Below, piece by piece: positions 42,610 through 64,000 of a DNA stretch of 64,000 nt. The DNA is from Chromatiaceae bacterium (GTDB taxonomy: Bacteria; Pseudomonadota; Gammaproteobacteria; Chromatiales; Chromatiaceae), in NCBI GenBank assembly GCA_026984455.1, contig JALSSC010000031.1, positions 124,001 through 188,000 on the forward strand, in the 5' to 3' direction. Position 1 is the first letter of the stretch; each line of letters starts with the position of its first letter. Made by a program: the position numbers and the translations under genes. The notes beneath the pieces were generated by a model. That model saw only the letters and a list, made by a program, of their open reading frames with translations. It made no database searches and was not told the DNA's origin.

Positions 42610-42930
42610 CTACTTGACCGGATAACCCATGTCGTGGCCGGACATGGCCTTCTCCATGCTGCTGGTGTAGTTCCCGTCGTCGTGTTTACCCGATCCCTCG
42701 CCGCCATAGACATCGTGGCTGCCTTTGTGGAAGGCCTTGAGGCCGGGGACGTGGGCCTTGCCGGTGGGGTTGCGGGTCGTCGCCGGGGCGTCGCTGCCGC
42801 CCATGTCCACGTTGCCGTGCTCGACCCTTTCGAGGCTGGTGTCGCCGGTGGTCGTGGTGTGATCGCTGAAGGCGGGGCCGGCGGCCAGGGCGAATACGAG
42901 GGCGGCGGTCGCGGTGAGGGGCTTGTTCAT
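42610..42930 (-). CDS. Exported hypothetical protein of the copper cluster
   Basis: This 106-residue protein has a clear signal peptide (MNKPLTATAALVFALAAGPAFS). The mature part is polar and rich in Gly, His, Thr and Asp (HGNVDMGGSDAP, KAFHKGSHDVYGGEGSGKHD) and without Cys, probably disordered. It is the first gene of a run that continues with the SHOCT, HMA-like, copA and Met-rich genes. I do not recognise the family; periplasmic metal binding is possible. Confidence 0.7.
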   Translation of the reverse strand: MNKPLTATAALVFALAAGPAFSDHTTTTGDTSLERVEHGNVDMGGSDAPATTRNPTGKAHVPGLKAFHKGSHDVYGGEGSGKHDDGNYTSSMEKAMSGHDMGYPVK

Positions 42931-49749: not shown

Positions 49750-50667
49750 TCAAATGAACTTGAACAACGACAGATCCTGAATCTTGGCGAAGGACTGCTG
49801 CGAGGCCTGAAGGGCCGTGAGCTGTTGCTGAAAGCGGCTCACCGCCTCGGCGTAGTCCAGGTCGCGCACTTCGGAGCGGGTGGTCTTCATGGTCACCAGG
49901 AAGTCCTCGTTGGCCTTCTTCTGGGTGTCGCTGGCGTTGATCCGAGCGCCCACCTGGGCGCGGATGTCGAGGATCCGCCCCAGGCCGGCGTCGAGGTCGG
50001 ACAAATAGGCCTGGATGGGTTGGCTGGAGGGCGGCGCGGGGGTGCCGGCGTCGAGGTCCTCGGCCAGGTCGTCCAGCATCTTGATGAGGTTGCGGGTGCC
50101 GCCGGCGGGATCGCTGAAGCCGCCGAACACGGCCTGGCCGTTGTCGCTGTCGGCGAGGGTGCGTTCGTGAGAGATGCGCAGTCGCCGTTGCCCGCTGTCC
50201 CCGGCATAGGTGTAGGGGCTGGGGGCGGTGAAGGGGCGGCTGTCGCCCTTGTAGCCGGAGAACAGGAACTCGCCGTTGGCGTCACGGGTGTTGGCCAGGC
50301 CCAGGACCTCGTCGCGCAATTGGCGTATCTCGTGGGCGATGGCGGTGCGGTCCTCCGGGGCCAGGGTGTCGGAGGCGGCCTGGACGGTGAGTTCACGCGC
50401 CCGCTGGAGGAGATTGCCCACCTCGCGCAGGCTGGTGTCCTCCAGGTCCAGGCGCTCGCGGGCGCGGTCGATGTTGCGTTGATGTTGTTCCACGGTGGCG
50501 ATGCGGCGGTCCAGGTCGAGACCGCGGGCGGTGGCGGTGGGGTCGTCCTCGGGGGTGACCACCCGCCGGCCGGTGGCCAGTTGCAGCTCGCTGTGGGACA
50601 GCTCGCGCTGCCGGGTCTGCATGGCGCTGACCCCACGCTGGAAGATCATGGCGGTGGCGATGCGCAT
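49750..50667 (-). CDS. flgL: Flagellar hook-filament junction protein FlgL
   Basis: FlgL (HAP3) links the hook to the filament. It has 305 residues. The N-terminal flagellin-like helix is MRIATAMIFQRGVSAMQTRQ; then GRRVVTPEDDPTATARGLDL, ANGEFLFSGYKGDSRPF and a C-terminal helix (LDYAEAVSRFQQQLTALQASQQSFAKIQ). It lies two bases after flgK and closes the flgGHIJKL run. Confidence 0.93.
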   Translation of the reverse strand: MRIATAMIFQRGVSAMQTRQRELSHSELQLATGRRVVTPEDDPTATARGLDLDRRIATVEQHQRNIDRARERLDLEDTSLREVGNLLQRARELTVQAASDTLAPEDRTAIAHEIRQLRDEVLGLANTRDANGEFLFSGYKGDSRPFTAPSPYTYAGDSGQRRLRISHERTLADSDNGQAVFGGFSDPAGGTRNLIKMLDDLAEDLDAGTPAPPSSQPIQAYLSDLDAGLGRILDIRAQVGARINASDTQKKANEDFLVTMKTTRSEVRDLDYAEAVSRFQQQLTALQASQQSFAKIQDLSLFKFI

Positions 50668-50669
50668 GG

Positions 50670-52340
50670 CTACCTCCCGACCGCGTTGATGAGCGAGTCG
50701 AATACGGTGTTGCCGGTCCGGACCACCTGGGCGGCGGCCTGATAGGCCTGTTGGAAGCGCACCAGGTCGGCGGCCTCCTCGTCGAGATTCACCCCGGAGA
50801 CTTCCTGTTGGGCGTTCTGATTGACCTCCAACAGGCCCTGTTGGGCCTTGAGGTCCACCTGCGCCTGACGGGTGCGGGAGCCGGTGGCGGCCACATAGTC
50901 GCCGAAGGCATCCTGGAGGCTGGCGGTGGGGCTGCCGGCGGCATCGCCGAAGAGGGTCTTCGCCCCTTGCAGGGCGGCCAGGGCGAGGGCGTTGCGGTTG
51001 TCCGAGATACCCGTGGGCGGGGTGTTGCCGGCGGCGGCGATCTTGCGGGTGTCGGCGATCACCCGGTCGATCGCTCCCGCCCTATCGGCGGTGGGACGGA
51101 TGAGGTAGCTGTCCCCGGCCGCGGGGGTGCCGGCGAGGGGATCGAGCTGAAAGCCGTCATAGGTGGTGCCGGCCGGGAAGGCCGCGCCCTGATAGAGCAG
51201 GCTGTGGTCGCTCAGGCGCTCCAGGCGGTAGTCGGTGCCGTCGTAACTGAGGCGGTAATCGGCCGCGCGCAGCCCGGCGATGTCGGTGATGCGCGTGCTG
51301 ACCACCCCGGTGCCGCTGTTGTCGCGACGAGGCAGGGCGTTCACCGGCCCCGTCATGTCGGTGAAGAACAGGCCTCCGGGATTGCCGTCCAGGTCGAGAC
51401 CCTGGGCGTGTTGGGCGTTCACCGTGACGGCCAGGCCGGCCGCCACCAGGCCCACCTGCTGGCGGCCCCGGTCGTAGACCTCCCGCCGCACCTTGAGCAG
51501 CCCGCCCAGCTCGCCGCCGCCGATCCGGTCGCTGAGGGTGACTGCGGCGCCGTCCTGGATGAAGGCGATCTCCTTGCGCTCGGGATATTCCTTGGAGTCC
51601 ACCGCAGCGAGTTTCCCGGCGCGGTCGCCCAGGACCAGGGCCTGACCCTGAGCGAAATAGACGTTCAAGGTGCCGTCCGGCTGGGATGCCCGGGTCACCG
51701 AAAGGTATTTGGAGAGTTCGTCGATGAGGTGGTCGCGCTGATCGAGCAGGTCGTTGGGCAGTTTCCCCTGGGCGCGGCCGGGGGCCTTGGCGATCTGGTC
51801 GTTGAGGCGGGCGATGCCTTCGGTCAGATGGTTCACGTCGCCGGCGATCCGGCCCAGGTCCTGATCGATGCGCCGCAACCCCTCGCTGAACTGGCGGTCG
51901 AGGGCATTGAAGCGGCTGGCGAGGGCGCCGGCCTCGGACAGCAGGAGACTGCGCGAGGGGATGTCGGACGGGTCGTTGGAGAGGCCCTGCATGGCGTCGA
52001 AGAATCGCTGCAAGGCGGGGTCCAGCCCGGTATCCTCGTTGGCCAGGGCGCCGTCGATCTGGGCCGCGTACTTGTGATAGGCCTCCAGGTCCGAGACCGC
52101 GCTCTGTCCGGCGCGGACCTGGCCCGCGAGGAATTGGTCGTACTGACGGCGCACGTTCTCCGCCTTGACGCCGGCGCCGATATAGCCGGAGCCCACATAT
52201 TGGGGCGTCTGGGTGCCCAACTCCACCCGCTGGCGGCTGTAGCCCGGGGTGCCGGCGTTGGCCACGTTGTTGCCGGTGGTGGCCAGGGCCTGCTGGTAGC
52301 TCTTGAGGGCCGAGATGCCGATATTGAGTATGCCTGCCAT
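50670..52340 (-). CDS. flgK: Flagellar hook-associated protein FlgK
   Basis: FlgK (HAP1) is a 556-residue junction protein. The N terminus ILNIGISALKSYQQALATTGNNVANAGTPGYSRQ is diagnostic of hook-associated and rod proteins. A central QRDHLIDELSKYLSV stretch and the C-terminal GVNLDEEAADLVRFQQAYQAAAQVV complete the family pattern. The middle region (about 280-430) forms the variable outer domains. It is secreted through the flagellar export system without a cleavable signal. Confidence 0.95.
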   Translation of the reverse strand: MAGILNIGISALKSYQQALATTGNNVANAGTPGYSRQRVELGTQTPQYVGSGYIGAGVKAENVRRQYDQFLAGQVRAGQSAVSDLEAYHKYAAQIDGALANEDTGLDPALQRFFDAMQGLSNDPSDIPSRSLLLSEAGALASRFNALDRQFSEGLRRIDQDLGRIAGDVNHLTEGIARLNDQIAKAPGRAQGKLPNDLLDQRDHLIDELSKYLSVTRASQPDGTLNVYFAQGQALVLGDRAGKLAAVDSKEYPERKEIAFIQDGAAVTLSDRIGGGELGGLLKVRREVYDRGRQQVGLVAAGLAVTVNAQHAQGLDLDGNPGGLFFTDMTGPVNALPRRDNSGTGVVSTRITDIAGLRAADYRLSYDGTDYRLERLSDHSLLYQGAAFPAGTTYDGFQLDPLAGTPAAGDSYLIRPTADRAGAIDRVIADTRKIAAAGNTPPTGISDNRNALALAALQGAKTLFGDAAGSPTASLQDAFGDYVAATGSRTRQAQVDLKAQQGLLEVNQNAQQEVSGVNLDEEAADLVRFQQAYQAAAQVVRTGNTVFDSLINAVGR

Positions 52341-52351
52341 GATGTGTCTCC

Positions 52352-53260
52352 TCAGGCGGCCTTGGCCGGGGCCGCCTCAGCGACCCGGGTGGGCGGCGGC
52401 AGGCGCCGATAGACGTCCATCACCTTGTCGGCGTAGGCCGGGTCGGTGGCGTAGCCTGCCCGTTGCAGGGCCTCGAACCAGGCGCGGGGCTCCTTCTGCT
52501 GCAGGGCCTCGCGGTAGCGGGGATTGGCCTTGAGGAAGGCCACGTAGTCGCTGAACGACTCGGCATAGGAGGCGTAGGCGCGGAAGGGCTCACTGCGCCG
52601 CACCGCCACCCCGTCCTCGTACTCCAGGGTCTCCCGGCGCACCCGCGCGCCCTGCCATCCGGGGCCGGCCTTGATCCCGAACAGGTTGTGGCTCGGGCGC
52701 CCGCCCACCTCGGGCTGATGGGCGCCCCAACCGGTCTCCAGGGCGGCCTGGGCGAGCAACGCCTGTCCGGGGATGCCCAATTCGCGGGCGGCGGCCTCGG
52801 CATGGGGGGCGAGGCGCCGGACGAAGTCCTCGGGCCCAGCGAAGGGCGGCTCGTCCACCGGGGGGGCGCTGGCTGCACCGGCCGCCGGGTGGGCGCGGGG
52901 GACTGGTGTCCGGGTGGGATGGGCCCGGTAGTCGTTCAGACCCCGCCCGGGCCCCGCGTCCACCTTCGGGGCGCCGGGAAGATGGGCGGCGATAAAGCGT
53001 TCCAGGCCGAGACCGTGACCGGCCAGTTGGCTGGCCAGTTGCTGATCGTAGAGGTCGCGGTAGAGCCGGCCCTGCGGATTGTCCAGCAGGCTCGGGCCGA
53101 GACCGGTGTGGCGCATGTCCTTGAGCAGGGTCTGCATGAGCAGGGCCTCGAACTGACGCGCCACCTCCTTGGCGGCACCCGCCTGGTCGCTGCGGGCGCG
53201 GGCCTTTAGCCGCTCCAGGGCGGCCAGGTCGGTGACGATGCGGGCGCTGGCGGTGTCCAT
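52352..53260 (-). CDS. flgJ: Flagellar rod-cap muramidase FlgJ
   Basis: This 302-residue two-domain protein has an N-terminal rod-binding domain (about 25-100; EVARQFEALLMQTLLKDMR, DLYDQQLASQLAGHGLGL) and a C-terminal glucosaminidase-type domain (about 145-290; LAQAALETGWGAHQPE, NLFGIKAGPGWQG, RAYASYAESFSDYVAFLKANPRY). The putative catalytic Glu is in ALETGWG. A Pro-rich linker joins the two. It degrades peptidoglycan to let the rod through. It starts two bases after flgI. Confidence 0.95.
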   Translation of the reverse strand: MDTASARIVTDLAALERLKARARSDQAGAAKEVARQFEALLMQTLLKDMRHTGLGPSLLDNPQGRLYRDLYDQQLASQLAGHGLGLERFIAAHLPGAPKVDAGPGRGLNDYRAHPTRTPVPRAHPAAGAASAPPVDEPPFAGPEDFVRRLAPHAEAAARELGIPGQALLAQAALETGWGAHQPEVGGRPSHNLFGIKAGPGWQGARVRRETLEYEDGVAVRRSEPFRAYASYAESFSDYVAFLKANPRYREALQQKEPRAWFEALQRAGYATDPAYADKVMDVYRRLPPPTRVAEAAPAKAA

Positions 53261-53261
53261 C

Positions 53262-54368
53262 TCAGATCACGATCAGCTCGGCGCGCAGGGCGCCGGCCTC
53301 CTTGAGGGCCTCGAGGATGGCCACCAGGTCGCTGGGGGCGGCGCCCACCTCGTTCACCGCCCGCACCACTTCGTCCAGGGTGGGTCCGGGGGCGAACTTG
53401 AACATGGGCTTCTTTTCCTCCGCCACGTCCACGTTGCTGCGCGGGGTGACCGCGGTCTGGCCGCCCGAGAGGGGAGCGGGCTGGGAGACCTGCACGTCCT
53501 CGGTGATGGTGACGGTGAGGCTGCCGTGGGTGATGGCCGCCGGGGCGACCCGCACCTCCTGGTTGATGACCACGGTACCGGTGCGCGAGTTGACGATCAC
53601 CCGCGCCACCGGGCGCCCGGCCTCCAGGGTGAGTTCCTCCAGAAAGGCCACGAAGCCCACCCGCTGGCCGGCCGCCTTGGGTGCCCGGACCCGCACCGAG
53701 GCGGCGTCGATGGGCACCGCGGTGCCCTCACCGAGGGCCTTGTCGATGGCATCGGCGATGTGTTTGGCGGTGGTGAAATCGGCGCGCTTGAGATTCAGCA
53801 CCAGATGATCGCCGTGGGCGAAGGGGGTGGCCAAGGCGCGTTCCACGGTGGCCCCGTTGGGGATGCGGCCGACGTTGGGCACGTTCACCGTCACCTTGGA
53901 GCCGTCCGCCCCCGAGGCCGACAGGCCGCTCACCAGGAGGTTGCCCTGGGCCACCGCGTAGACCTTGCCATCGGCGCCCTTGAGGGGGCTCATTAGGAGG
54001 GTGCCGCCGCGCAGGCTCTTGGCGTTGCCCAGGGAGGAGACGGTCACGTCGATGTGCTGGCCCACCTTGGCGAAGGGCGGCAGTTCGGCCGAGATCATCA
54101 CCGCGGCGGCGTTCTTGGGCTTGATCTTGACCCCGGGAGGGACGCGCACGCCCAGGCGGGTGAGCATGGCGCGCAGGCTCTGGAGGGTGTAGGGGGAGTC
54201 GGTGTCCTTGTCGCCGGTGCCGTTCAGACCCACCACCAGGCCATAGCCCAGGAGGGCGTTGGCACGCACCCCGGCCACGTCGGCCAGGTCCTTGATGCGC
54301 TCGGCGGCGCCGGCGCTGGCGCCGGCCAGGGAGAGGAGCAGGGACAGTAACAGGATGAGTGGTCGCAT
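53262..54368 (-). CDS. flgI: Flagellar P-ring protein FlgI
   Basis: This 368-residue periplasmic protein builds the P ring around the rod. It has a signal peptide ([21 protein letters not shown]). Hallmarks: [31 protein letters not shown], the [16 protein letters not shown] segment, [34 protein letters not shown] and the C-terminal [22 protein letters not shown]. Confidence 0.97.
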
Positions 54369-54379
54369 GGCGGTCCTCC

Positions 54380-55090
54380 TCAGAAGGGCATGAGGGCGCT
54401 GATGAAGAAGCGCGCCAGCCAGCCCATGGCATTGGCGTCGGCCACCGCGCCGTCACCCACGTAGGTGATGGTGGGGTCGGCGATCTTGGTGGACTCCACG
54501 CTGTTGTCGGCGCTCACGTCCCAGGGGCGCACGATCCCCGACAGGCGGATGTATTCGTTGCCCTGATTGATGCCCAGGCGTTTCTCGCCGCGCACCATGA
54601 GATTGCCGTTGCCCAGGACCTGGACCACGGTCACGGTGATGTCACCGTTCAGGGTGTTGCTCTGGGAGCTGGCCGACTCGCCCTTGAAGTCGTGTTCGCT
54701 CTTGGTGGCGAAGCTCAGGTCGCCGGCGCCCAACCCCTGCGGGCCGGTGAACTTGGGTTTCATGCCCAGCAGGGTGGGGTTGTCGATGTTCTGTACCGTA
54801 GACTTCTTGGCCGAGGTCTTGGCCGCCTTGTCGGCCTGGGTGCGCTCCACCAGGCGTACCGTGAGGAGGTCGCCCACCCGGTGGGCGCGCAGATCCTCGA
54901 ACCAGCTCAGGGCGTAGCCGTCGTGATAGAGGCTGCCGTCGCCGGTGGGCTCGGGCGGCGGCGCCACGGGGCGCGCGGGGGCATAGGCCGGGTCGCGCAC
55001 CGGCGCGCTGTTGCAGCCGCCCAGGACCAGGGCGGAGAGCAGGATCGGGGCGAGGGCGAAAAGGCCCCGGCTGGTGTCCGTGTGGTTCAT
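54380..55090 (-). CDS. flgH: Flagellar L-ring lipoprotein FlgH
   Basis: This 236-residue outer-membrane lipoprotein forms the L ring. The lipobox is LGGC (about residue 23-26). It has [71 protein letters not shown] and [20 protein letters not shown], all classic FlgH stretches. The start at 55090 follows the flgG stop by 14 bp; an in-frame ATG at 55108 would overlap flgG. Confidence 0.97.
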
Positions 55091-55104
55091 GCGCGGGCCA
55101 CCCC

Positions 55105-55890
55105 TCATAGGTTGTTGGTGACGAAGCCGAGCATCTTGTCGGCGGTGGAGATGGACTTGGAGTTCATCTCGTAGGCGCGCTGGGTCTGGATCATGTTCAC
55201 CAGCTCTTCCACCACGTTCACGTTGGAACTCTCCAGGTGTCCCTGGAGCACCGTACCCAGGCTGTCGTTGCCGGGCAGGCCGGTCAGGGGCGCCCCGGAG
55301 GCCACGCTCTCCCGAAACAGGTTGTCGCCCTGGGGCTCCAGCCCCTGGGGATTGGCGAAGTTGGCCAGCTCGATCTGGCCGATCTGGGTGGGGCTGGTGG
55401 CCCCCGCCAGGAGGGCCGAGACCACCCCGTCGGAGCCGACGGTGACGCTCACTGCGTTGCTGGGGACATTGATGGCCGGCTCCAGGGCGTAACCGCTGGC
55501 GGTGACCACCTGGCCGTCCTGATTGAGGCTGAACTGGCCGTCGCGGGTATAGACGATGCTGCCGTCCGGGTGCAGCACCTGGAAGTAGCCCTTGCCCTCG
55601 ATCGCCAGATCGAAGTTGTTGTTGGTGGTGACCAGGTTGCCCTGTGCGTGTTCCTTCTGGGTGGCCACGGTGCGCACCCCCGTGCCGATCATCAGGCCCG
55701 AGGGCAACTCGGTGTTCTGCGTGGAATTGGCCCCCACCTGGCGCACGTTCTGGTACATCAGGTCCTCGAACACCGCCCGATCGCGCTTGAATCCGGTCGT
55801 GTTGACGTTGGCCAGATTATTGGAGATGACCGACATATTGGTCTGCTGGGCATCCAGGCCGGTCTTCGCAATCCATAGAGATGGGAACAT
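55105..55890 (-). CDS. flgG: Flagellar distal rod protein FlgG
   Basis: This 261-residue distal rod protein has the N-terminal [41 protein letters not shown] and the C-terminal [35 protein letters not shown], both typical. The frame is open upstream to 56199, but the ATG at 55890 ([15 protein letters not shown]) is the family start and has AAAGAGG upstream. It is the first gene of the run; flgF is not upstream as it is in many other gammaproteobacteria. Confidence 0.97.
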
Positions 55891-56325
55891 GGCAGCGTCC
55901 TCTTTCCGACGTTTCGTGCTGGGTAACAGGGTATAAGCAAAGATCTTGCCAAGGCGGCGGAGGAGGGGGCGGACCCGCAGCCCGGAAAGGTCATGGGGAA
56001 GGCAAGGGGACGGTGGCGGCAAGCGCTTGCCGGGGCGGGCGGAGAGGGAGCGCATGTCCGCCGGTCGGTGTTTGTCGGGGAAATAGATTGGAGGCGGGCG
56101 GGAGATCTTGGCGTCTGGCGCGAGGGCTTGGCCGGCGCGCATCAGGGGTTCATGCGCATCCGCCGCTTCGGTCTCCTGGCGAACCGCGGCGGCAGGCAAC
56201 CCGCCGGAGCGATTGCATCCTCGGCGCCGCTATCGCCGCCCTGTCGAGTGGAGGTGACAGATCACCGGGAGTGCGGGGGGGCACGGCAGCGATGGCCAAA
56301 GGCCATGGATCCGGGCGCATGCGGG
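55891..56325. other. Promoter region upstream of flgG
   Basis: Apart from the sigma-54 promoter at 55935-55953 nothing is supported. Open frames on both strands are in-frame extensions of flgG or antisense to tadA and show no family features. There is no trace of flgF. Confidence 0.5.
55935..55953 (-). promoter_or_regulatory. Sigma-54 promoter of flgGHIJKL
   Basis: The minus strand reads TTGGCAAGATCTTTGCTT. GG and GC are ten bases apart, the -24 box TGGCAAG has one change from TGGCACG, and the -12 box TTTGCT is consensus. The start site would be near 55925, giving a leader of about 35 bases before the flgG ATG. Class II/III flagellar operons of Vibrio and Pseudomonas use sigma-54 in the same way. 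Confidence 0.8.
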
Positions 56326-56805
56326 CTATGGGAGGGGGCGAAAAGAACGGCGCTTGCGAAAAAAGGCCCGCAGTATCTCGCCACACTCGACCTCAGACAC
56401 GCCGCCCAGGCATTCCACGCGGTGATTGAAGGGAAATCCCGATGGCAATAACTGGAAGGCCCCACCGCAAGCGCCACCCTTGGGGTCGTGAGCGCCGTAC
56501 ACCACCATTGCCACCCGGGCATGGACCAGGGCACCGGCACACATCACGCAGGGTTCCAGGGTGGAATAGAGGATCGTCCCCGGCAACCGGTAGTTACCCA
56601 GTCGCCGGCCGGCGTTACGCAGCGCCAGGATCTCCGCGTGGGCGCTGGGATCGGCCAGGCCGATGGGACGGTTCCGGCCCTCGCCGACGATTTCGCCATC
56701 CTGGACCAAGACCGCGCCCACCGGCACTTCCCCCTCCGCCGCGGCGTGGACGGCCTGGGCCAGGGCGCGGGACATGAAGGTCTCGTGATTGGCGGCCATG
56801 CTCAT
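56326..56805 (-). CDS. tadA: tRNA adenosine(34) deaminase TadA
   Basis: This zinc enzyme converts A34 to inosine in tRNA-Arg(ACG). Active-site motifs: DPSAHAEILALR (HAE, zinc His and catalytic Glu) and TLEPCVMCAGALVHARV (PCxxC zinc ligands). A VVYGAHDPKGGACGG segment and a C-terminal FFRKRR complete the family. About 159 aa. Starts at 56805, 56799 and 56844 are in frame; 56805 (MSMAANHETFM) or 56799 is most likely. Confidence 0.93.
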   Translation of the reverse strand: MSMAANHETFMSRALAQAVHAAAEGEVPVGAVLVQDGEIVGEGRNRPIGLADPSAHAEILALRNAGRRLGNYRLPGTILYSTLEPCVMCAGALVHARVAMVVYGAHDPKGGACGGAFQLLPSGFPFNHRVECLGGVSEVECGEILRAFFRKRRSFRPLP

Positions 56806-57158
56806 TCCATTTTTGAATAAGCCATCAGTGGTATCGATCTTCAAAAGGTTAGTTTATCTGTTATGAACGACGATATCATGTAGATTCGCTGTGGGGAGAT
56901 CCTTGCTATGTGATATCTGTCAGGTCTGGCCCACCTTTTCCAGTGACATGGACGCCGCCCGGCGGGCCCGCGCGCAGTGCCACGTTGACAGGATGGGAGG
57001 CCTCACCGGCGGCCTCATGCACAGCGGCGCCAGCCTGATGACACCCAGGCCGCAGGTATTTGTTGTCGCGGGTCGCGGACCGCCGTTCTCGAAATGCCGG
57101 CGCCACGTTGTAACGCCTTGGACTTGAATCGCACTCGCTAACCATGGAGGACAAAAAT
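56806..57158. other. Intergenic region tadA - SDR
   Basis: There is no supported gene. The first 100 bases are AT-rich (promoter-like for tadA on the minus strand), in contrast with the surrounding GC-rich DNA. A minus-strand open frame across 56906-57217 shows no family features. Composition changes here toward the lower-GC segment that runs to the window end. Confidence 0.4.
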
Positions 57159-58010: not shown

Positions 58011-58460
58011 TAGATACCCATCGTCGCCCAAGAGCGGGTGCCGGCCTTGCTGGACAGTCTGGATCGGGCCACGATGGTCGTCGTGACCGTGTAATCGCTG
58101 CCAAGTGTTTCGAAAGCCGGTTCAAGACAGTTCGAGGTATTCCTGCTCATCATGGATTCCATTACCACCAGGATGGGGATGGTCATTGCCCATGGGCGGG
58201 CGGTATTGTTCAATCCATATTTGTCCCCTGCTGATTCAAGCCCTGAGTACCGCGCCCGCTGTCCTCGTCGAGCGGCATAGACTCCATACATCGCGCAACG
58301 CGCGTATCGCGGCCATCTCCGGACCTCAATCGCGCGTGCCACCATTCATCCCGATATACGGCATTTCGTCGCATGATGCAGCGGCGCGCAATCACCGCGG
58401 ATATGCTGTGTACATAGGTTTGGTCCATCCATTCTGCAGCCACCGGCGAGGACATTCGGT
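58011..58460. other. 450-bp region without a recognisable gene
   Basis: Short frames occur on both strands; none has family features or a good ribosome site. The plus-strand stretch just after the SDR reads IVAQERVPALLDSLDRA before stopping and could be a gene remnant. The last 80 bases probably carry the promoter of the following operon. Confidence 0.4.
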
Positions 58461-59126
58461 ATGAAAACGAAGAATCACCCATTTCGGCATCTGTGCCTGA
58501 GCCTGATGGTCGTTCTGACCCCTCTGGGCACAAGCGCCGAAACGGCAAACTTTGCATCCATTCAGGCGGTTTTTGAACAAGGTCTGCGCGGTGACGCCGA
58601 GGCCGCGGAAACAGCCTATCCCGGCCTGCAGAAACTGGTGAAGGATCATCCGGACAACCCCTTGTTCCTGGCGTATCTCGGCGCTGACGAAACCCTGTTC
58701 GCGCGCGACGGTTGGGTTCCGTGGACGCGCATCAAGTTTCTCGACAGCGGGTTGGACAAGGTGGACAAGGCATTGGCTATGCTTGGCCCGGAGCACGACG
58801 AGCAGTACGAGCGCGGATCCGTTATCAGCATCGAAACACGGCTGGTGGCGCTGACGACGTTTCTGAACGTGCCGCCTTTTTCCAACCGTCTGCAAGACGC
58901 CAAGGATCTGTTTGCGGAAACCCTGGAGCAGCCGGCGTTCCACAACGCCGCCCCAGAGGTGCGCCAACGCATCTATCTGCAAGGTGCAGAAATCGCGAAG
59001 CGCGATGACGATGAGGCGCTGGAGAAAAAATACCTCAAGCTGGCGCTGGACGCCCGTCCCGGGCAGAGCCACTACGCCAACATCGTCCGCGCACGTCTGG
59101 CGGTGATTGGGGACATGAGTCAATGA
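58461..59126 (+). CDS. Exported TPR-like helical protein of an ABC-type envelope operon
   Basis: This 221-residue protein has a signal peptide (about 1-27, ending LGTSAETA). The rest is helical with repeat-like units: AVFEQGLRGDAEAAETAYPG, KLVKDHPDNPLFLAYLGADE, and EALEKKYLKLALDARPGQSH, resembling tetratricopeptide repeats. An RLVALTTFLNVPPFSNRLQDA segment is in the middle. Its stop overlaps the start of the ABC ATPase gene (ATGA). I do not recognise a named family. It probably acts in the periplasm with the transporter encoded downstream. Confidence 0.75.
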   Translation: MKTKNHPFRHLCLSLMVVLTPLGTSAETANFASIQAVFEQGLRGDAEAAETAYPGLQKLVKDHPDNPLFLAYLGADETLFARDGWVPWTRIKFLDSGLDKVDKALAMLGPEHDEQYERGSVISIETRLVALTTFLNVPPFSNRLQDAKDLFAETLEQPAFHNAAPEVRQRIYLQGAEIAKRDDDEALEKKYLKLALDARPGQSHYANIVRARLAVIGDMSQ

Positions 59127-59860
59127 AACCCGGGGTGACGCATCGCAATCATGGGGGGCCGCCGGTGTTGAAGATGGAAAACATCCGCAAGACATACGAT
59201 ATGGGCGATACACAGGTCATCGCCCTGAAACAGGCGTATCTATGCCTGGAAGCCGGCGATTTCGCGGCGCTGAAAGGCCCCTCGGGCAGCGGCAAGAGCA
59301 CCTTGCTGAATATCTGCGGGCTGCTCGATTCCGCCAACGATGGGGAACTGGAATTCCTGGGCCAGCCGGTGGCGGGCCTGAACAATCGACAACTCACCCT
59401 GTTGCGCCGCGAAAACATGGGCTTTGTGTTTCAGAGCTATCATCTGCTGCCGGTTTTGTCGGCGAGCGAGAATATCGAGTACCCGTTACTGCTCAAGGGC
59501 GAGGACGTGAAGACGCGCCAAAACCGGGTGGCGGAACTCATCGAGCAAGTGGGCCTCAGCCGCTTCGCCCATCACCGCCCGGATCATCTTTCCGGCGGCC
59601 AACGCCAGCGTGTCGCCATCGCCCGCGCGCTGGTGAACCAGCCGAGACTGGTGATCGCCGACGAACCCACCGCCAACCTCGATACCGAAACCGCCACGCA
59701 AATGATTGAACTCATGCACGCCCTGGGCAAGGCCCAGGGGACGACTTTTCTCATCGCCACCCATGACGAACGCATGGCGGCGCGCTGCGACCGCGTACTG
59801 AACATGCGCGATGGCGAAATCCACGAAACCACGGAGATCGCAGTCCATGAAATGGCTTAG
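59123..59860 (+). CDS. LolD/MacB-type ABC transporter ATP-binding protein
   Basis: This 245-residue nucleotide-binding subunit belongs to the LolD/FtsE/MacB group. Walker A: LKGPSGSGKSTLLNICGLLD; Q-loop: ENMGFVFQSYHLLPVLSASENIEYP; signature: HLSGGQRQRVAIARALVNQP; Walker B: LVIADEPTANLD; His switch: FLIATHDERMA. The first 17 residues precede the domain and may not be used (in-frame GTG at 59165, ATG at 59174). It overlaps the permease gene by 14 bases. Confidence 0.92.
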   Translation: MKPGVTHRNHGGPPVLKMENIRKTYDMGDTQVIALKQAYLCLEAGDFAALKGPSGSGKSTLLNICGLLDSANDGELEFLGQPVAGLNNRQLTLLRRENMGFVFQSYHLLPVLSASENIEYPLLLKGEDVKTRQNRVAELIEQVGLSRFAHHRPDHLSGGQRQRVAIARALVNQPRLVIADEPTANLDTETATQMIELMHALGKAQGTTFLIATHDERMAARCDRVLNMRDGEIHETTEIAVHEMA

Positions 59861-61064
59861 ATTCGCAATACGCAATGTCTGGCGCAACAAGCGTCGGGCC
59901 GCGGTGACGGTGATTATCACCGCAGTTGGCGTCGCGGGCATTCTGGTGGCGGGCGGGTTCGCCTTTTACACCTACGACTCGCTGAAAGAAATGGCGGCGC
60001 GTGACAACGGACATATCGTGCTCGCGCACCACGATTATTTCGACAAGCAGGAAGAAAAACCGCTGGAGTTCGGCTTGCAGGATTATGCGCGCTACCGCAA
60101 GGCGTTGTTGCGCAACGACAAGGTGCGGGCGGTTTTGCCCAAACTGGAATTCAGCGGGCTCATCAGCAACGGCGACAAATCCACTGTCTTTGTTGGCAAG
60201 GGCGTCGCGCAGGGCGAGTTCCGGGTCAAGGGGCCGTTTCTGAAGATACGGCAAGGCCACGCACTCAGCTCGCGCCATGAAGAGGGCGCGGACCCGCAGA
60301 TCATGATTGGCGAAGGTCTGGCGAAAGCGCTGAACGCCAGGCCCGGCGACTCGCTGACCCTGTTGTCCAATACGGTGGAAGGTTCACTAAACGCCGTCGA
60401 TGTCGTGGTGCAGGGCGTATTCAATTCCGGCGTGCCGGAAATCGACAAGCGCCTGATGCTGATGAATATCCAACAGGCGCAGGCGCTGTTGCAAACCGAT
60501 AAGGCCAGCAGTCTGTCCGTCTATTTGTACGACACCGCCGACACGGAAGAAATGGCCGCCCGAGTGCGCCAGCAATTTCCGGCGCTGGCGCTGCAGACCT
60601 GGCGCGATTCGGCTTTCTATTATGAAGCCGTGCGCGGTTTGTATAACCGGATATTCGGCTTGCTGGGCGTGGTGATTCTGCTCATGGTGTTGTTCGCCGT
60701 CACCAATACTCTGTCCATGACCGTGGTGGAACGCACGCGCGAAATCGGCGCGCTGCGCGCCATGGGCACGCAACCGCCGGAGATCGTGCGCAATTTCGTG
60801 CTGGAGGCGCTGGTCATGGGCATCGCCGGCATCATCATTGGCATGGCCATCGCCGCCAGCGTATCGCTGTTTTTCTACATGACAGATTTTCAGATGCCGC
60901 CACCGCCCGCGCGTTCACAGGGCTATCCGCTAGTGGTGTACGTCCATCCGCCGCTCTATCTGCTCACCGCGTTCAGCGTGCTGGCGATGTCTCTCGCCGC
61001 CGCCTGGTTCGTGGCGCGCAAATCCGCCCGTAAACCCATTGTTGAGGCGCTGGCCCATGTTTAA
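59847..61064 (+). CDS. FtsX/LolE/MacB-type ABC permease
   Basis: This 405-residue membrane protein has one N-terminal helix (about 14-36), a large periplasmic domain of about 220 residues and three C-terminal helices with the FtsX-domain pattern (LGVVILLMVLFAVTNTLSMTVVERTREIGALRAMGT, then LEALVMGIAGIIIGMAI). The N terminus MKWLRFAIRNVWRNKRRA is typical of MacB/LolE-like permeases. With the ATPase it should act as a mechanotransmission transporter working on periplasmic or outer-leaflet substrates. The ATG at 59847 lies within the ATPase gene's last codons. Confidence 0.9.
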   Translation: MKWLRFAIRNVWRNKRRAAVTVIITAVGVAGILVAGGFAFYTYDSLKEMAARDNGHIVLAHHDYFDKQEEKPLEFGLQDYARYRKALLRNDKVRAVLPKLEFSGLISNGDKSTVFVGKGVAQGEFRVKGPFLKIRQGHALSSRHEEGADPQIMIGEGLAKALNARPGDSLTLLSNTVEGSLNAVDVVVQGVFNSGVPEIDKRLMLMNIQQAQALLQTDKASSLSVYLYDTADTEEMAARVRQQFPALALQTWRDSAFYYEAVRGLYNRIFGLLGVVILLMVLFAVTNTLSMTVVERTREIGALRAMGTQPPEIVRNFVLEALVMGIAGIIIGMAIAASVSLFFYMTDFQMPPPPARSQGYPLVVYVHPPLYLLTAFSVLAMSLAAAWFVARKSARKPIVEALAHV

Positions 61065-61800
61065 GAAACTGATGATGCTGTTCGTCCTTTGCGCAAACCT
61101 GTCACCCGCTTTCGCGGCGGATACGCAGACCATTCTGAAAGCCGCCGACCGCTTCCGCCTGAACGCCGACGCGGTGCAGATCAACACGCGCATTCTATTG
61201 TACAAAAACGACAAGCTGGACAAGGAGCGTGAATACACCGTGTTTCTGAAGCCGGGACGGCGGTCGCTGGTATTGTTTCGCCACGCCAGCGAGCGCGGCC
61301 AGAAAATGCTCATGCTCGATGACAAATTCTGGATCGTCATGCCCAAAAGCCGCCGTCCCATTCGCGTGACGGCGATGCAGAAACTGCTGGGCGAGGCCTC
61401 CGCTGGCGATATCGCCACGATGACCTGGGCCGAAGACTACGACGCCCGGCTGGTCAGGGAGACCACAGTGGATAACGCGCCCGCGCTGATACTGGCGCTG
61501 TCGGCAACGCGCAAGGACGTCACCTACAAACGCATTGAGCTGACTGTGGCGAAACAGGATTCGCGCCCGCTCAAGGCCGATCTCTATGTCAGTTCCGGCA
61601 AACTGGCCAAACGGGCGACTTTCACGACCGCCCCGCGCAACGGACATGACCAGGTCATTTCCACCACGCTGATCGACGCCATCCGGAAAAACCGGAAAAC
61701 CGTGATCGAATATCAGGGCGTCACGCCGCGCGACATCGAGGACAAATACTTCAACCCGATGTTCCTGGTGCGCAATTCGCTGGATGATTTACAGCCGTGA
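61057..61800 (+). CDS. LolA-like outer-membrane lipoprotein-sorting protein
   Basis: This 247-residue exported protein has a signal peptide (MFKKLMMLFVLCANLSPAFA). The mature part has the beta-sheet pattern of the LolA_like (PF17131-type) family: ILKAADRFRLNADAVQINTRI, YTVFLKPGRRSLVLF, KFWIVMPKSRRPIRVTAMQKLLGEAS and a C-terminal DIEDKYFNPMFLVRNSLDDL. Members carry lipids or lipoproteins across the periplasm. It overlaps the permease gene by eight bases, so translation is coupled. Confidence 0.85.
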   Translation: MFKKLMMLFVLCANLSPAFAADTQTILKAADRFRLNADAVQINTRILLYKNDKLDKEREYTVFLKPGRRSLVLFRHASERGQKMLMLDDKFWIVMPKSRRPIRVTAMQKLLGEASAGDIATMTWAEDYDARLVRETTVDNAPALILALSATRKDVTYKRIELTVAKQDSRPLKADLYVSSGKLAKRATFTTAPRNGHDQVISTTLIDAIRKNRKTVIEYQGVTPRDIEDKYFNPMFLVRNSLDDLQP

Positions 61801-63038
61801 GCGCCACGCGGCAAATGGCGATACTCGGCATAGCAGCCTGGATTCTGGGCGCAAGCGGCGCGCAGGCTGGCGATGCGGGAGCAGCGCTGCGGCTGACCGT
61901 GGACGACGGCCAGAGCAGCGACGGCGGTTTGTATGGCGTTCCTGAAGCGGTGTTGCCCGCACTGCAAACGAGCAGCCAGCAGAATCTGGAAATCAACTGG
62001 CGAAACCACGGCCTCAACAGCACTTTTACCCTGCGCAACCGCGCCGCAAAGGGGCTGCAACCTCAACAGGACGCGTTCTTCAACGAACTGTATTTCGATA
62101 CCAGTGCGGGCAAACTGGACCTCAGCATCGGGCGTAAAATCACCAGCTGGGGCGTGGGCTTCGGTTTCCGCCCACTGGACGTGATTCAGCAGGAAGACCG
62201 CCGCGCCTTGTACACCAATACGCTCAGGGGCGTCGATCAGGCGGCCATGGAATGGTTTGGCGCAAGCGCCGCCGTGAGCATGGTCTGGAGCAATCCTGGC
62301 AGGGGCACAGAAAATACCCCGAAGCGCGACCAATCCATCGCGCTGAAATTTTACCACAGCGGCGAAAGCGGCGACCTGCACGCGCTGGCGCGCTATAGCG
62401 ACAGAACAGAAACACAGCTTGGCGTGGGCGTCAGTCAGGTGTCTGGCGACGCGCTGGAATGGCACGCATCGGCCCTGTGGCAACAAACAGCCAGCAAGCC
62501 CATCAACCGCCTGACCCTGCCCGATTCCACATCTTTGCTCGGCGCAGCGAACCCGTTCTTCGATCAGGCGACGCACGGCGCAATCAAGGCGCTGGCGGGT
62601 GCGAGCTGGACCCACAGCAGCGGCTGGGGCGTACTGGGTGAAATCTGGTATGACGAAACAGCCTATTCCGACGCGCAATGGCAAGCGCTGAACCTGCTCA
62701 CCGCGCAGCAGCGCGATCTGCTGGCGCATGGGCGAGCCCCCGCCAGCGCCGTGCTGGGCAATATCGCCTATAATCGGCAGGCTTTTCTTGCCGACAATCT
62801 GCGTCAATGGAACGCGCTGATACGCGTCTCCCGCCAGAACGGCTCTTTCGAACCCGCGCTGGAATTGCTCTATACTCCCGAGGATCAAGGCTGGGTCGCC
62901 ACCGCGAGCGGCGTTTACAAACTGAACCGGCAACAGCTTGAAATCGGCTTGCGCCATTTCGGCGGCGACAGCGATTCAAGCTGGTCTTTGCTGCCAATCC
63001 AGTGGCAGGCGTTCGTCAGTTGGCAGGGAAATTTCTGA
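61797..63038 (+). CDS. Predicted outer-membrane beta-barrel protein
   Basis: This 413-residue protein has a signal peptide (ILGIAAWILGASGAQA) and many short amphipathic strands: QNLEINWRNHGLNSTFTLRN, LYFDTSAGKLDLSIGRKITSW, SIALKFYHSGESGDLHALARY, and an end in QWQAFVSWQGNF with terminal Phe, the usual barrel assembly signal. The GTG at 61797 overlaps the LolA-like stop; an ATG at 61815 is an alternative. I do not recognise the family. As part of the operon it could be the outer-membrane destination or exit of the ABC/LolA pathway. Confidence 0.75.
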   Translation: MSATRQMAILGIAAWILGASGAQAGDAGAALRLTVDDGQSSDGGLYGVPEAVLPALQTSSQQNLEINWRNHGLNSTFTLRNRAAKGLQPQQDAFFNELYFDTSAGKLDLSIGRKITSWGVGFGFRPLDVIQQEDRRALYTNTLRGVDQAAMEWFGASAAVSMVWSNPGRGTENTPKRDQSIALKFYHSGESGDLHALARYSDRTETQLGVGVSQVSGDALEWHASALWQQTASKPINRLTLPDSTSLLGAANPFFDQATHGAIKALAGASWTHSSGWGVLGEIWYDETAYSDAQWQALNLLTAQQRDLLAHGRAPASAVLGNIAYNRQAFLADNLRQWNALIRVSRQNGSFEPALELLYTPEDQGWVATASGVYKLNRQQLEIGLRHFGGDSDSSWSLLPIQWQAFVSWQGNF

Positions 63039-63293
63039 GCATGAAAAATACCGACCGTTCACCATCATGTGCCAGAAGGCTGGCAGACTTGTGAAAATCT
63101 ACTCGGCAATTGCTCCATGCATTGCTCTACCTCCTGCATCCATGCAGTCGTACGAAAAAGCCAGATTTGGCCAGCTTTCCCGCTCTTTTTCGTCAAATAG
63201 CCTGCTCCACCCTTCGCCTAACGGCTCTTCCCGCTCAAAATATCGGAAAACCCTGGCGTTTATGCCCTTTGGGTGCAAACTGGACTTTCCCTC

Positions 63294-64000
63294 GTGACGA
63301 TTCCACAAGTCCGACAGCCTCCTTGGCGAGATCTGTCCCTGCTGCTACTTTTCTGTCTCGTCATCGCCGTTTTTTTACAGCTGATTCGCGGCAATGGTCT
63401 GATCCACAATCTGGTGTTTTCCGAATCCATCGGCATCAGCATCTATTCTTCCATCAAGGCCCTGATCCGGCTGCGCCATTCGTCCAAAGACGATTTCGTC
63501 AGTTGTCTTGTGGGCATTCCGCTGGGCGGCTTTGCTGGCGTGGTCATCGGCGCGGTGCTGACAGGCGCCAATCCACTGCTGTTGTTCAGCACGAAATTCG
63601 ACAAACAGCAAAAGGAGCTGCTGATCCCGGCGCTGGCGGCCATCGTCTTCGGCGTGGCCATCGCCTGGTTTTTCCATTCGCGCGAAAAAATGGCGCGGCA
63701 AAAACTCCAGTTGCAACAGGAGGCCAGCCGCCGCAGCGAAAAAGAAAAAAATCTGGTGGAAACGCAACTACGCCTGCTGCAAGCGCAAATCGAACCGCAT
63801 TTTCTGTTCAACTCGCTGGCGAATGTGGTCAGCCTTATCGACCACGAACCCGAAAACGCGAAGCGCGTGCTGGAAAACCTCAGCGACTTTCTGCGCACCA
63901 GCCTGCTTAGAACCCGCCAGGAGGCCACCACCGTGCGCGATGAGATCAACCTATTGACCGCCTATCTCTATATCCAGCGAGCGCGGATGGGCCAACGCCT
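63294..64000 (+). CDS. LytS/YehU-type sensor histidine kinase (3' partial)
   Basis: The frame runs from GTG at 63294 to the window end. About 235 residues are visible. Membrane segments at about 12-28, 75-95 and 108-128 (LLLLFCLVIAVFLQLI, GIPLGGFAGVVIGAVLTGA, LIPALAAIVFGVAIAWFF) lead into a coiled coil and the His_kinase region QAQIEPHFLFNSLANVVSLI (about 163-182; the His is the phosphorylation site), then LENLSDFLRTSLLR. The ATPase domain is cut off. The start is uncertain; the frame stays open upstream. Such kinases pair with LytTR response regulators, expected just downstream, and may control the preceding operon. Confidence 0.85.
   Translation, partial: MTIPQVRQPPWRDLSLLLLFCLVIAVFLQLIRGNGLIHNLVFSESIGISIYSSIKALIRLRHSSKDDFVSCLVGIPLGGFAGVVIGAVLTGANPLLLFSTKFDKQQKELLIPALAAIVFGVAIAWFFHSREKMARQKLQLQQEASRRSEKEKNLVETQLRLLQAQIEPHFLFNSLANVVSLIDHEPENAKRVLENLSDFLRTSLLRTRQEATTVRDEINLLTAYLYIQRARMGQR

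Follow-up and report, generated by a model that had tools for sequence, protein, structure and literature searches.

We examined a 64,000-nucleotide (nt) stretch of the genome of a Chromatiaceae bacterium (GenBank assembly GCA_026984455.1, contig JALSSC010000031.1, positions 124,001 to 188,000 of the forward strand; hereafter the window), the end of which carries an operon encoding an ATP-binding cassette (ABC) transporter together with periplasmic, outer membrane, and regulatory proteins. Its first gene (58461 to 59126) encodes an exported tetratricopeptide repeat (TPR)-type alpha-solenoid protein of 221 amino acids (aa) and is followed, all on the + strand, by genes for an ABC ATPase of the LolD/MacB/FtsE type (59123 to 59860), a type VII ABC permease with MacB_PCD and FtsX domains (59847 to 61064), a periplasmic LolA_like carrier (61057 to 61800), and a predicted outer membrane beta-barrel of 413 aa that ends in a phenylalanine (61797 to 63038). 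These five genes overlap successively by 4, 14, 8, and 4 bases, with the permease starting at the ATG at 59847 and not at an earlier in-frame start at 59811. A histidine kinase gene, also on the + strand, begins at 63273 and extends beyond the window end, as far as the equivalent of 64355, where it overlaps by 4 nt a gene for a Response_reg plus LytTR regulator (L009:7852-8616, the equivalent of 64352 to 65116). A predicted LytTR/AlgR-type operator, CCATTCAT-N12-GCATTTCGTCGCAT, lies on the + strand at 58342 to 58374, 86 bp before the first start codon. By eye, the TPR-type protein and the carrier have signal peptides, and none of the three exported window proteins (these two and the barrel) has a lipobox.

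A preliminary description of this DNA proposed that the five overlapping genes form one coupled unit and predicted a LytTR regulator beyond position 64000; the regulator is indeed there, and conservation of the gene order bears out the unit. When all open reading frames of 46 loci were scored with profiles of the seven proteins, the order TPR-ATPase-permease-LolA-barrel-kinase-LytTR was found in 13 loci (the window, L011, L014, L074 to L076, L078, L081 to L085, and L087), six of them from Vibrio, with the ATPase gene split in two pieces in L085 and the barrel gene interrupted by TGA in L087. All seven genes are also kept, in permuted order, in L088, the LytTR gene is divergent in L071, and Plesiomonas and Vibrio sp. 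HDW18 retain six genes without an adjacent TPR gene. Several of the collinear loci are close Vibrio relatives and not independent of one another; the rest come from different families, and the persistence of gene order across many families excludes a chance arrangement. The kinase, which had been counted as part of the system, is a conserved member of the operon but stands outside the overlapping run, its start following the barrel stop after a gap of 234 nt; in Vibrio and Plesiomonas loci it directly abuts the barrel gene. Outside closely related Vibrio, no other neighboring genes recur, including any that might name a substrate, so the unit is self-contained. In the Nitrospirota locus (L010), genes for a MipA outer membrane protein and a small exported protein (L010:3885-4760) lie between the TPR and ATPase genes, and in one genome (G085) the system occurs three times, each copy on a separate contig (L072, L073, and L077).

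The PF06580 kinase and the Response_reg/LytTR regulator make up a LytTR-type two-component pair, and control of the operon by this pair, as had been supposed, is supported by a predicted operator common to the loci. The motif CCRTTYRY-N12-CCRTTYGTCGCA, allowing a few mismatches, occurs upstream of the operon in 16 loci that span two phyla and include the window and the Nitrospirota locus. The half-sites of the window operator are 20 bp apart, as are the direct repeats in Vibrio upstream regions, and the half-site matches the AlgR core, CCGTTCGTC (PMC4064291); by sequence match and conservation, this is a putative direct-repeat LytTR-type site at the target promoter. Scored with a matrix built from the 15 other loci, with the window left out, the window operator reached 28.9, whereas 60 simulated 66-kb sequences gave no score above 18.4, and no other site in the 2.8-Mb genome matched the motif with 2 or fewer mismatches. 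Whole-genome scans at this stringency recovered the operon site in 8 of 12 genomes, in six of which (G000, G454, G564, G483, G110, and G108) it was the single match, while the pattern reversed as a control matched each genome 0 to 2 times. A scan for the half-site only, with Vibrio-trained weights, failed to single out the window site (p 0.23), which the two-part motif did. Another operator-like site, at 42923, scored 17.0 bits, within what the simulations produced, and was set aside. As the operator has no other match in the genome at this stringency, the regulator appears to serve this operon alone.

Profile searches matched the ATPase, permease, carrier, kinase, and regulator to known families and left the TPR-type protein and the barrel unmatched in Pfam. 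The ATPase carries a Walker A motif (GPSGSGKST) and a signature motif (LSGGQRQRV) and scores 236 bits against TIGR02211, under the cutoff of 307.75. The permease matches PF12704 (MacB_PCD, 2e-14) and PF02687 (FtsX, 4e-16) and has four transmembrane (TM) segments by hydropathy; such a permease, with a LolD/MacB/FtsE-type ATPase encoded alongside, defines a type VII ABC transporter. Its solved relatives are LolE (2e-19), LolF (1e-16), YtrF, and MacB, and the operon has a single permease gene, in agreement with the one LolE-like subunit described earlier, so that the permease is probably a homodimer. The carrier matches the LolA_like family PF17131 (4e-36, 124.7 bits against a Pfam gathering cutoff of 30), with 3BUU (NE2245) as its solved homologue (7e-32); it is LolA_like rather than LolA itself (PF03548), which it does not match.

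An ATPase closest to LolD, a permease closest to LolE and LolF, and a carrier whose fold is LolA-type by homology to 3BUU would fit a second, specialized Lol pathway that serves a single lipoprotein or a small number of them, possibly surface exposed, and in which the barrel replaces LolB. We consider this unlikely, as the operon contains no lipoprotein gene, no neighbor recurs across distant loci, and LolC/E and LolA are already encoded in the genome, with a true LolC/E (517 bits) elsewhere and the single PF03548 match on another contig. The operon permease scores 126 bits against lolCE, far under the cutoff of 362. As read from the sequence, the hairpin that it has in place of the Lol Hook falls short of those of LolE and LolF by about 5 residues, and the AGVVPRF motif of LolF is missing from it. 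With housekeeping LolABCDE/LolF the operon shares a type VII ATPase and permease that would pass cargo to a LolA-fold carrier; it differs in having a PF17131 rather than a PF03548 carrier, scores below the cutoffs, a barrel in place of LolB, and an apparently dedicated regulator. These differences support the earlier view that the operon is distinct from the housekeeping Lol pathway. Two other loci in the same genome encode related proteins: at L122:2737-6871 (G000:C14), a LolA_like gene, two LolC/E-like permease genes, and an ATPase gene are followed by a metallophosphatase gene instead of a barrel gene, and at L123:3639-5822 (G000:C79), a gene for a 727-aa DUF1302-like outer membrane protein adjoins a LolA_like gene.

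The first-gene protein, taken to be a TPR protein in the preliminary description, has no Pfam TPR match, but its AlphaFold2 model (predicted local distance difference test [pLDDT] 80, predicted template modeling score 0.77) is an 11-helix TPR-type solenoid. Foldseek matches of this model were weak, as is usual for repeats, and homologues occupy the same position in the 12 other collinear loci and in L010. The barrel, called unrecognized, did give no match in Pfam, NCBIfam, or the PDB but can be linked through intermediates to DUF1302 outer membrane proteins. By sequence alone we found weak relatives, of which 20 were retrieved together with their surroundings (L090 to L109; E values of 4e-11 to 5e-4; frames mostly of 370 to 540 aa, longer frames having been left out), here termed remote barrels, the core barrels being that of the window and its close relatives. 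A type VII ATPase and permease adjoin 18 of these 20, often with a LolA_like gene, and the permeases are one, two, or fused. Direct matches to PF06980 (DUF1302) came from remote barrels only (several of them) and from neither the window barrel nor its close relatives. In profile-profile comparisons, core barrels matched remote barrels at 99.8% and remote barrels matched DUF1302 at 92 to 95%, with reversed controls below 0.5%. The window barrel is best described as a probable remote relative of DUF1302, not a member. In one remote locus (L092:6417-12329) the barrel gene is present in three tandem copies beside one ATPase-permease-LolA set.

In the AmeABCD system, DUF1302 and LolA-superfamily DUF1329 proteins work with a resistance-nodulation-division (RND) pump, and deletion lowers monoterpene tolerance; cassettes of this type are implicated in tolerance of hydrophobic compounds (PMC6394551). 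They have in common with the operon the combination of a LolA-superfamily carrier, a DUF1302-type outer membrane protein, and an inner membrane pump. The pump of the operon is an ABC transporter rather than an RND (HAE3) protein, however, its barrel is only remotely related, and its TPR solenoid is a component not reported for AmeABCD-type cassettes.

We hypothesize that the operon encodes an inducible, ABC-driven trans-envelope route taken by a lipid or by another hydrophobic molecule that is embedded in the membrane, which we regard as its probable function. The gene content, conserved order, and protein families, and the conservation and near uniqueness of the operator in genomes, were observed directly; the direction of transport, the substrate class, the homodimeric state of the permease, the role of the TPR protein, the signal, and activation rather than repression are our inferences, as follows. 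The ABC transporter would extract the cargo from the inner membrane, the LolA_like protein would receive it in a greasy pocket and carry it across the periplasm, and the DUF1302-like barrel would accept it at the outer membrane, in the role of LolB or of an exit pore; this path is suggested by published type VII transporters (PMC12646458) and by LolA-fold carriers. The TPR solenoid probably brings the carrier, transporter, or barrel into contact. The kinase, embedded in the membrane, would sense the molecule or a disturbance of the membrane, and the LytTR regulator would then bind the two-part operator ahead of the TPR gene and switch the operon on. The carrier family, the DUF1302/DUF1329/RND link, and a kinase almost without a periplasmic domain all suggest a lipid or hydrophobic cargo. 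Where a lipid, lipoprotein, or peptide was proposed earlier as the cargo, we favor a lipid or hydrophobic molecule.

Several observations weigh against this reading. The cargo may instead be a lipoprotein or peptide, and the diverged loci L070, L072, L073, and L089 have no kinase or LytTR gene nearby, some of them being cut by contig ends. Compared directly, the core barrel and DUF1302 match at a moderate 45 to 63% probability, and the single-sequence AlphaFold2 model of the barrel was unusable (pLDDT 33), so the assigned fold rests on the DUF1302 link, the signal peptide, and the C-terminal aromatic residue. On the regulatory side, 3 of the 12 scanned genomes gave no operator match with up to 2 mismatches, the sole match in G066 is located away from the operon, and a sigma-70 promoter was not apparent next to the operator of the window.

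The kinase has a His_kinase PF06580 core, common with LytS, plus HATPase_c, and 3 to 4 TM segments; it lacks a sizeable periplasmic domain and gave no match to the LytS 5-TM sensor domain, which makes the earlier label of LytS-type a loose one. This topology resembles that of intramembrane-sensing kinases. With a two-component pair of its own and an operator of nearly single target, the type VII transporter could form part of a Bce-like detoxification module, whose kinase, LytTR regulator, and transporter would detect membrane-active peptides or amphiphiles and clear them. YtrF, a Bce-related protein, ranks with the best of the solved relatives of the permease, and a MipA outer membrane gene sits inside the Nitrospirota cluster. 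Bce systems, however, are not known to have a LolA-like carrier or an outer membrane barrel, both of which the operon encodes, and Bce permeases have a large extracellular domain, whereas the operon permease matches an ordinary MacB_PCD. We judge such a module quite improbable, and it overlaps with the hydrophobe route preferred here if the removed compound is hydrophobic. Type VII transporters can also act mechanically without transport (PMC12646458), and the operon could in principle be an FtsEX-like device for mechanotransmission signaling or envelope remodeling that moves no cargo; this seems highly improbable, given that a LolA_like carrier and a barrel accompany the permease as conserved partners in nearly all relatives, even remote ones.

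In its parts the operon is related to known transporters, and we found no description of the system itself in the open-licence literature, where only the Borrelia BBJ23-29 cluster and a Vibrio parahaemolyticus STRING mention turned up. BBJ23-29 is the closest published system, with TPR proteins, an ATPase, a homodimeric type VII permease, a LolA-like carrier, and an outer membrane barrel (PMC13078400), and its ATPase, permease, and LolA-like genes are in the same order with overlaps. The two permeases are related as type VII proteins (125 bits), but the carriers are only marginally related (11 bits), the TPR proteins not detectably so, and the Borrelia barrel, assigned to Omp85, is likewise not detectably related to that of the operon (hhalign, 0.2%); the Borrelia cluster contains no kinase/LytTR pair. 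In V. parahaemolyticus, the ATPase VPA0015, the LolA-domain protein VPA0018, and the LytTR protein VPA0021 are linked by STRING (PMC10469919), as predicted interactions only and without a system being named; judged from roles and numbering, VPA0015-VPA0021 is probably an orthologous locus. YbbAP-TesA is a further type VII ABC transporter, for which extraction of hydrophobic compounds out of the inner membrane has been proposed (PMC12646458), but differs in delivering them to a hydrolase, in its 10-TM permease, and in lacking a LolA-like carrier and barrel. We tentatively suggest, with somewhat less confidence than for the lipid or hydrophobe route itself, that the operon represents a previously undescribed class of self-regulated trans-envelope lipid/hydrophobe exporters, in which a homodimeric type VII ABC transporter would form one route with a shuttle of the LolA_like family, a scaffold of TPR type, and a barrel related to DUF1302. 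Such a class would match the DUF1302/DUF1329/RND cassettes on the ABC side and would have spread from phylum to phylum, carrying its own LytTR switch.

The system is patchy in its distribution, with full-length barrels (E <1e-30) in 10 of the 369 genomes sampled from the class, or about 3% of sampled Gammaproteobacteria, and in 10 of the 299 sampled from the phylum; the 33 other genomes of the family yielded no full-length match to the barrel of the window. The window permease groups with the Nitrospirota sequence (support 97/93), the two being 61% identical over 215 columns, and the Nitrospirota locus was the only one contributed by a permease scan of genome contigs. The operon has a GC content of 60%, compared with 67.6% for the window, and the drop, from about 68 to 70% to about 58 to 60%, occurs at 56500, just after a flagellar cluster on the - strand (49750 to 56199) and a tadA-like gene (56326 to 56844). 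The operon was likely acquired laterally, although the low-GC stretch reaches the contig end (L009) and may instead reflect an assembly misjoin. Beyond the regulator gene, a convergent gene (L009:8829-9665) encodes an exported DUF6923/DUF4394-type protein with a PEP-CTERM-like tail.

The transit of lipids and hydrophobes to the outer membrane is still poorly known, and this operon unites a putative inner membrane extractor, a shuttle, an outer membrane receiver, and a sensor in one small unit, connecting two types of pump, ABC and RND, through a shared kind of carrier and barrel. The system is present in culturable Vibrio and Plesiomonas, and its near-unique operator means that the inducing signal could be screened for with a single reporter; that signal should in turn point to the cargo.

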